64,000 nucleotides of DNA from contig NC_134526.1 of the NCBI RefSeq assembly GCF_027942865.1, positions 10,634,284 to 10,698,283 on the forward strand. The letters are read 5' to 3'. Position 1 is the first letter of the stretch; each line of letters starts with the position of its first letter. A program made the position numbers and the translations under genes. The notes under the pieces are model-generated. The model made no database searches and had not been told where the DNA came from. It was given only the letters and a program-made list of their open reading frames with translations. The stretch is from Odontesthes bonariensis. Its lineage: Eukaryota > Chordata > Actinopteri > Atheriniformes > Atherinopsidae. Shown in pieces: positions 29,597 through 56,929 of this stretch.

Positions 29597-29682
<86 letters not shown>

Positions 29683-36060: not shown

Positions 36061-36480
36061 ATCTTCCAGTCTTATCCTTTCTGCGGTTTCATTTTCAAAG
36101 AAAACAAAAAGTGCTTTCATGTGGGCAGATTTGTAAAGCTGCGTTGAGTATTTTCCTTTAGGTGCATTTAAATTGAAAGAAAAAGAAAAAAGCTGAAGCT
36201 CGGCCTGGGCAGCAGAGCTTAAATCTTCCTCCCCCTAAGTTTTTCCATTGCAAACAATAGCTGTTTGAGCAGGCATTGCTAAGTGCCTTTACGTTCCCCC
36301 AAGGTAATGAGCCTTATCTGAATTAGATGAACAGGCACCCTCAGCTGCAGGTGAGTGGGGGAGAAATATTTCTTTGTCATCCTGAAGAAGGATTCAGTTT
36401 ATAACTGATGGGTAAAAGGTGATGTGTTCATAAAACAAAGTGGGTGAAAAAAAAAATAAGATAAAGCAATAGAAAATGTG

Positions 36481-51912: not shown

Positions 51913-53600
51913 AGAGCGCGTGCTGCTGAGAGTGTGTGTCGGCATGTGTGTGGCTCGACGGGCAGAGTTTTTATTGATGAGCCGTGAATGAGTGTGAGAG
52001 GATTTTAGGTTCCAGCAGCCCCGCTTCTCATCAGTTTCTCACTGTGAAGTATTTTATTTTCAACTCTTTTTCTTCTGTGCTCTGCAACTGTGATCGTCAG
52101 GAAAACTTCTACGTTGTAGGCTGAGCAATAGGAAAATATAAAGAAAAAAAAAGTCGGTCAGACGTCGAACAAACCAGCATTTTTTTACATTGTTGCGATC
52201 CTGCAACTTTACTCACCCATAACTTACAGGAGTACTTGTTAGTGACTTTTGATTAGAAAAAAATAGATAGAATGTAATGAAATAAGATAAAAAAAAACAG
52301 AATGCCCATGCAATCTTTTCTACATGGAGGTCTGAACATACAGGGCTTTTTAAAATAGGACCAAATAAGACATTCCTATTGCTTGAGCTGAGCCATGTTT
52401 GGTAATGACATAGTGAAGCAGCATTTAATGTTAAAGTACATTAAGCCACAATTAAAAGAAATAGCAGTTTGTGTAAGTTAAGGTCTGTCTGTCCCTAACA
52501 TGTGAGCATGGTCTGTTGGAGGTGGATTTGTTGGTTGCAGGTTAAGAGAGCTTTGTTTAAGTTATTTACACACTTGCTGACAGTAGTGTTTCTGGACCTC
52601 GCAGACAAAAAACGAATAATACCTGGATAAAGTTTCAATGTTCAGTGTGTTTTATCTGCTGACTAAGGACATCTTTATACATGATTGGGAGCTTATTTTG
52701 TCCCATTACAGTCTTACCTGAGCCAGGGGAGTACCGATGTATGTCGGTTCATAGCATTTGTGAACCTGAGCTCCAAGGCGAGAAACGCTTCCATGTCGTG
52801 TGAGTAAGTACAGAATATTTTTATTTTTATTTTTCTGCCCTTTGGTGTTCATGTTTAATAGTTTGCACGAACCTGCCGCTTTGTGTGTTTTTCTGTTTAA
52901 AGGATATTACCTGAACAGATCTCTTTATATTTCACCATTGTCGTATGATGTGTAATTGACAGTCAAGCTGAACTTTTTTTAAAGAAAGAAATAGAATATT
53001 GTCCATTTCATGGCTCTTATGTCAGTAGGGAACCATGTTTACAGCAAAATAGGTTAAAAAATGTATCCTCATATCTTTTTTTTTTTTTTTTAATTATTAT
53101 TTTTAAATGGCTTTTGTGCTGGTCAGCCTGATTTCCGCTACATGGTCAAACCATGTCAGAATTTTAGAATTGAAGTGGCACTTTATGCTTAAAAAAACAA
53201 GAGTTGAGATTTATTAAAAGGCAAATATCAGAGCCTAAGAGTGTTGTTTTGCTTTTGTTTTTAAAGAGGAAAAACACTTTGCTTTCTTTCATTGTGTTTT
53301 ATTGAGAAGAAAATCATAGCTGCAAGAATTTTACTTTAATATAAAAAAAAAACTGCTGGGGTACATGGAGTCGAAGTAGAAAAATTGTGCACTGATCGGA
53401 AGGTGTTGACATTTTGAGACTTGTAGACTTGGTTTGTTGGACTTGGTTTGAATATTCCTCCATGAAGACTAAGTTCGTCAATATAAGTGATTGTCTGTTT
53501 GATCATTTAATGTGCATAGTATTGTATTCTCTTCTCTGTATCTGGTTTTGATATGTTTTGAAGTGAAAATCTTATTGAATAAAATGTTTGCAAATAGGTT
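51913..53600 (+). other. retreg3: retreg3 3' untranslated region
   Basis: About 1.7 kb from the stop to the AATAAA at 53578-53583. It is AT-rich with T14 and A8-type runs, and no other gene is evident. The single strong hexamer at the end makes one long 3'UTR the simplest reading, but no transcript evidence is available. Confidence 0.6.
53578..53583 (+). terminator. retreg3: retreg3 polyadenylation signal
   Basis: AATAAA followed by TGTTTGC and then a GT-rich stretch (TTTGTCTTACTCG), about 1.67 kb beyond the stop codon and about 640 bases before the psmc3ip start. Confidence 0.6.
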
Positions 53601-55928: not shown

Positions 55929-56294
55929 TAGTACAACTTTAATAAACGTTGAATTGGAAAAGAAGTGTAACAAAAACAGCTTCATCATTGGCTCAACACC
56001 AAAACAGTTTGACAGCACTGAGGGATGCTCGTCACCACAGGCACCGGTGGTTTTTTTTCCCTTTTAAAGCCATTAAAGCAACCCTGAAAATATCAAACTA
56101 TTCATCATAGATCAAAGAGCTGTATATTGTTGTTCTCAAACATGTTCTAATCCATCGGACGATTTTTCAACATGTTAACCGCTGTGTGAACAATGGTTGG
56201 TTTATACGAGCTTCCAATATTGGAGTGAATTGTTCCATTTTCTCTTTTTAAGCTGTAGCACTGTTAAACGTTCTTGACAGTAATTTCTAAAGGC

Positions 56295-56923
56295 TTAAAG
56301 GATAAGACCGGTTTTTTGACATTGGGCCCTTGATTTCACATTATAACATGATGTTCTACTCACCCCTGCTTGTTGTTGAACATTTGGAGCTGTTCCGAAG
56401 ATATTCGAGAGGCGTCTGGCTGCTCTCTTGAGATATTCGGCCATGAAACGGTTTCCTATGGGGAACGTTATACAGGCACAAACTATGCTGTTTATAATTT
56501 ATTAATTACTGTACACTAGCACTGATAACGTGGAGGTGCGTCGCTTACTTAAAAAAATCCGGGTTACTGTAATTTTGCTACTCGTGCTACTGCCACAGAC
56601 AGCCCACAGACCTGCTGCCTATTTATTCATTCGGCTAAAATTCAAAATTAGTAACCCGGATTTTTTTAAGTAAGCGACGCACCTCCACGTTATCAGTGCT
56701 AGTGTACAGTAATTAATAAATTATAAACAGCATAGTTTGTGCCTGTATAAGCTTGCCCATAGGAAACCGTTTCATGGCCGAATATCTCAAGAGAGCAGCC
56801 AGACGCCTCTCGAATATCTTCGGAACAGCTCCAAATGTTCAACAACAAGCAGGGGTGAGTAGAACATCATGTTATAATGTGAAATCAAGGGCCCAATGTC
56901 AAAAAACCGGTCTTATCCTTTAA
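56295..56923. mobile_element. Palindromic foldback MITE flanked by TTAA
   Basis: A 629-bp inverted repeat: left arm about 56295-56577, right arm about 56643-56923, loop of about 65 bases. Compared by eye, the arms differ by three clustered substitutions (GGGGAACGTTA against GGGCAAGCTTA) and a 2-nt indel next to the loop, so they are about 98-99% identical. Each end reads TTAA then AGGATAAGACC inward, consistent with TTAA target duplications as in piggyBac- or Kolobok-type DNA transposons. No transposase frame is present, so it is a non-autonomous element. It lies between the convergent 3' ends of psmc3ip and mlx. Confidence 0.85.
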
Positions 56924-56929
56924 GCTCAA

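Follow-up and report, generated by a model that had tools for sequence, protein, structure and literature searches.

In the window, as we call the whole 64,000-nucleotide stretch of DNA analysed, a foldback element is flanked by two genes whose ends face each other, psmc3ip on the plus strand and mlx on the minus strand. The product of psmc3ip, with its exons joined by hand, matches Pfam LZ3wCH (E 1.6e-9), which we take to be the domain of Hop2/PSMC3IP. The other neighbour is presumably mlx, a name given by similarity; its candidate product has only a sub-cutoff HLH match in Pfam and no match in a PDB search. The convergent psmc3ip/mlx pair of the original prediction stands by a domain match for psmc3ip, and more loosely for mlx.

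The foldback is an inverted repeat (56293-56925) with arms of 276 bp each (56293-56568 and 56650-56925) and three mismatches, paired at 56463/56755, 56466/56752 and 56467/56751. Beyond these arms there is a 2-nt gap and then 8 more paired bp, which leaves a loop of ~65 bp. Counted with one TTAA per end, the unstranded element occupies 56295..56923, and termini of this kind are found in every copy that retains both ends (38 of 40). The left and right TTAA (56295..56298 and 56920..56923, unstranded), which would be the target site duplication, enclose the left arm with the terminus AGGATAAGACCGG (56299..56577, plus strand), the loop (56578..56642, unstranded) and the right arm, whose opposite strand bears the same terminus (56643..56919, minus strand); the end sequence is also written as TTAAAGGATAAGACCGG and TTAAAGGATAAG. 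The near-perfect foldback with a short loop and TTAA at both ends that had been described from the letters alone was therefore recovered in full. The loop is shorter by 34 aligned positions than that of the family, and nearly all other copies keep these positions (12 of them are missing from L045, three from L026 and one from L012). When folded as RNA, the element is predicted to form a hairpin of -532.1 kcal/mol, far below all 20 shuffled sequences (-156.7 ± 7.2 kcal/mol, none as low), in line with the long hairpin first proposed. Among the 25 of 39 inverted-repeat pairs of the window that were listed, it exceeds all others in length by a wide margin, the second longest measuring 49 bp, and most of the remainder involve A/T runs. 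An outward AATAAA is present in each arm (56715, plus strand; 56498, minus strand) and another in the loop (56622, minus strand), which could make the element a source of poly(A) signals. Elsewhere the window holds a perfect CA repeat of 41 units (29599-29680).

Related copies are dispersed in the same genome, presumably that of a fish (945 Mb, 187 contigs), where the best 40 of 1077 first-look candidates gave 126 matches. Besides the window copy, these best 40 comprise 39 further places, 32 of which match the whole query while 7 are partial or internally deleted; the sample is non-random, having been chosen by match to the window copy, and 36 of the 40 lie in one orientation. The terminal TTAA is present at the right end of all 40 and at the left end of 38, the exceptions being L041 and L046, whose left end is missing with other sequence joined directly; no second end for these two was seen in the 9.9-kb stretches around them. 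Flanks, compared over 40 nt per side, amount to 38 distinct ones among the 40 copies. Three copies (L042-L044) have common flanks and represent one threefold duplicated locus, with one copy inverted; these three, L045 and L047 carry an internal deletion within one arm. The distance to the 663-bp family consensus averages 1.03% (range 0.45-2.69%) over 35 copies, that is, leaving out the window copy, L041, L043, L044 and L046, and the consensus arms pair without mismatch over their outer 272 bp. Around the truncated or deleted copies, four 9.9-kb loci searched by BLAST and with a 12-base end motif contained only the known copy and no longer relative. Fish DNA is not expected in the other collections consulted, in which we found no exact match to one 21-mer (prokaryote genomes), no exact match to three 21-23-mers (viral contigs) and no distant match (phages). 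Two further end-like matches in the window were set aside as chance: a third occurrence of TTAAAGGATA, at 52897 (1.93 expected and three found, of which two are the ends of the element itself), and a 15-nt match at 36066-36080 with no TTAA.

These data define the class of the element. It has terminal inverted repeats, TTAA at the target site (38/40 left and 40/40 right, the duplication itself being deduced from them), similar copies ~1% from their consensus at 40 places with 38 distinct flanks, and no transposase of its own, its longest listed stop-to-stop frame having 67 residues. It is very probably a young, non-autonomous, TTAA-inserting foldback MITE, as the transposon reading in the original prediction had it, with copies that share their limits amid distinct flanks. 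Near-perfect palindromes can in principle arise as assembly artefacts, from an inverted or collapsed contig, but the 39 further TTAA-bounded places in the same genome, which keep the same limits amid distinct flanks, argue against both chance and artefact, and we consider the latter negligible. As to what moves the element, Kolobok elements have a TTAA target and a terminal RR, with AG termini in the full-length elements listed in the relevant section of PMC6004289, and here TTAA is followed by AG (AGGAT; AGGATAAGACCGG). The TTAA plus AGGRR signature of T2-MITE, given in the same section, fits the first four bases of AGGAT and fails at the fifth. Movement by piggyBac would equally account for insertion at TTAA, a target common to both; however, a start of CC[C/T]T after TTAA, as piggyBac is characterized in the portion of PMC2872659 concerned, is absent here, where the terminus reads AGGAT, and this alternative appears unlikely. 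Because an AG start follows TTAA, Kolobok is favoured over piggyBac, and a Kolobok-type transposase is the probable mover, judging from the ends; neither an autonomous partner nor a transposase was found in the four 9.9-kb stretches around odd copies.

Known elements offer both likenesses and differences. As presented in that section of PMC6004289, the Xenopus T2-MITE/Kolobok elements share with ours the TTAA target, the AG that comes next, short non-autonomous structure and many similar copies; they differ in that our element breaks AGGRR at the fifth base, that its arms make up most of its length and that no transposase was found for it. For the TTAA plus AGGRR motif the section cites Izsvak 1999 and another paper. 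Very long inverted arms are also a feature of the Galileo/Foldback-like elements of Drosophila, among whose copies ectopic exchange is documented in the parts of PMC2775673 and PMC4168063 bearing on it, although Galileo belongs to the P superfamily and has another target. By the same accounts (PMC2775673, PMC4168063), the arms of GalileoN-1 and -2 are >99% alike within a copy and ~7% apart between copies, and the chimeric GalileoN-4 and -5 show the reverse (~6% apart within a copy, >99% alike between), whereas in the present family the arms differ within copies as much as between them. Compared by description only, Angel of teleosts (Izsvak 1999) is likewise a short inverted-repeat teleost element. 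The element belongs to an already known general kind, and the less ordinary point is that the copies compared look like shuffled mixtures of each other. Angel, too, reportedly has a hairpin shape.

The three substitutions that separate the arms of the window copy do lie within five bases (56463-56467, plus strand), as first noted. G56463 in the left arm is private to the window copy (1 of the 34 copies that have a base at this position). The other two, C56466 and G56467, also in the left arm, are common to the window copy, L024, L026 and L045 (4 of the 34). At all three places the family consensus pairs, and the odd letters are those of the left arm of the window copy. The original prediction held that they could reflect arm-to-arm gene conversion; this we reject, because such conversion would have erased the three substitutions. 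By comparison of the copies, they are ordinary changes in a single arm, inherited in part, with two present in three other copies and one private.

We compared arms within and between copies in those 32 of the 40 whose two arms are both complete. The two arms of one copy differ at a mean of 4.56 sites, and arms taken from two different copies at 4.57 (permutation P 0.59). A copy therefore does not homogenise its own arms in place. In 38 copies (all but L043 and L044), the same variant nevertheless occurs in both arms at 9 paired sites. The expected number is 1.46 if right-arm variants are shuffled over positions with the same base (0/20000 as high) or 3.94 with three-base context kept (27/20000). 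At one further paired site both arms vary, each to a different base. At sites 85-87 the right-arm side is carried by L045 alone, and without this copy the paired sites number 6 against 1.23 expected (20/20000). Of the nine, four are transitions and five (17, 86, 87, 114, 217) transversions, so that recurrent mutation, though possible, is not an easy answer.

Combinations of variants along the element were also compared. The 22 common variable sites in 36 copies (L041, L043, L044 and L046 dropped) form 231 pairs, and in 151 of these every one of the four combinations occurs; mean r2 is 0.26 below 6 bp, 0.09 at 6-60 bp, 0.046 at 60-150 bp, 0.048 at 150-300 bp and 0.034 beyond 300 bp. If seven doubtful columns are left out, four combinations persist in 72 of 105 pairs and the correlation of r2 with log distance is -0.51 (0/2000 permutations), much of which is supplied by neighbouring bases, since it is -0.20 without pairs ≤2 bp apart. 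Retaining one site per close cluster (11 sites, 55 pairs), we find 36 pairs with four combinations and a correlation of -0.39 (39/5000 permutations as low). Variants recurring in both arms, taken with the four-combination pairs, suggest that copies exchange short tracts, and short-tract exchange among copies seems to be the best reading of the variant pattern, limited as this result is by the non-random sampling of best matches. The stronger form, in which the copies behave as a freely recombining population that swaps tracts of tens of bases, also from arm to arm, with sites more than ~60 bp apart almost independent, is a tentative proposal that we hold to be somewhat doubtful. A literature search for MITEs together with gene conversion, mosaic structure and template switching found nothing, and one combining foldback, palindrome and conversion returned a nematode genome paper alone.

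Left arms appear roughly threefold more variable than right arms, differing from the consensus by 3.9 against 1.3 per 268 bp in the 32 complete copies, and singletons number 25 in the left arm and 12 in the right (binomial P 0.047). The arms are told apart by the loop only, and we give the asymmetry little weight because, in a sample of best matches with 36 of 40 in one orientation, it may be an effect of the search.

Two functional explanations of the hairpin were weighed. The right arm contains an outward 49-codon ORF (56774..56923, plus strand) whose stop codon lies inside the terminal TTAA, with its mirror in the left arm (56295..56444, minus strand). Each arm would then offer a captured gene fragment, an outward first exon with a splice donor that fuses with neighbouring genes, and each arm does have, facing outward, an ATG with 49 open codons and a donor-like GTGAGT motif (at 56855 in the right arm); the ORF start is, moreover, present in 37/40 right and 34/40 left halves. 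Attractive as this ORF is, it varies neutrally: the 37 variants within it (40 copies, both arms) comprise 27 non-synonymous and 9 synonymous changes plus 1 stop, where 26.2, 9.0 and 1.8 are expected without selection, and no Pfam family matched the right-arm frame up to E = 1. From this neutral pattern the arm ORF is probably not a selected gene, and outward exon capture was rejected as very improbable. It is only slightly less improbable that the element is a selected hairpin-RNA locus, a source of endo-siRNA or of ADAR targets acting on psmc3ip or mlx. The predicted RNA hairpin is indeed extreme, but such elements occupy no fewer than 40 dispersed places, the left-arm mismatches and loop deletion of this one are those of any decaying copy, and poly(A)-signal hexamers lie between it and each gene: AATAAA on the plus strand on the psmc3ip side (55863, 55923, 55941), and ATTAAA (57933) and AATAAA (57741) on the minus strand on the mlx side. 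Only read-through past these hexamers would include the element, which weakens the earlier proposal that read-through from either gene does so, although such hexamers also arise by chance. Double-stranded RNA, ADAR editing or endo-siRNA is structurally possible given the modelled fold, and nothing special is indicated for the psmc3ip-mlx locus itself.

The TTAA-inserting MITE would have arisen and spread as follows. Two inverted arms of ~283 bp flank a short asymmetric loop, with ends reading TTAA-AGGATAAGACCGG. A putative transposase made elsewhere would cut both ends, and the element would insert into TTAA, leaving TTAA at each side; the TTAA ends are observed, and their duplication is what such insertion would produce. 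A master with perfectly paired outer arms would have spread recently, the copy between psmc3ip and mlx being one ordinary insertion. Copies would then have swapped short tracts, perhaps by gap repair after excision or by ectopic gene conversion.

It is a long-standing question how MITEs, and palindromic ones in particular, multiply when they bring no replicative transposase themselves. The present family is young and nearly perfect, it exists in many copies and its variants can be counted per arm, so that candidate models become distinguishable: a master copy, in-place conversion of arms and template switching each predict a different variant pattern. The non-random sample of 40 speaks against homogenisation of arms in place and favours exchange between copies or arms. 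What most deserves further attention is the possibility that copies exchange freely; if true, it would mean that amplification or repair of the hairpin element proceeds through repeated template switching between copies and not by simple cut-and-paste descent.
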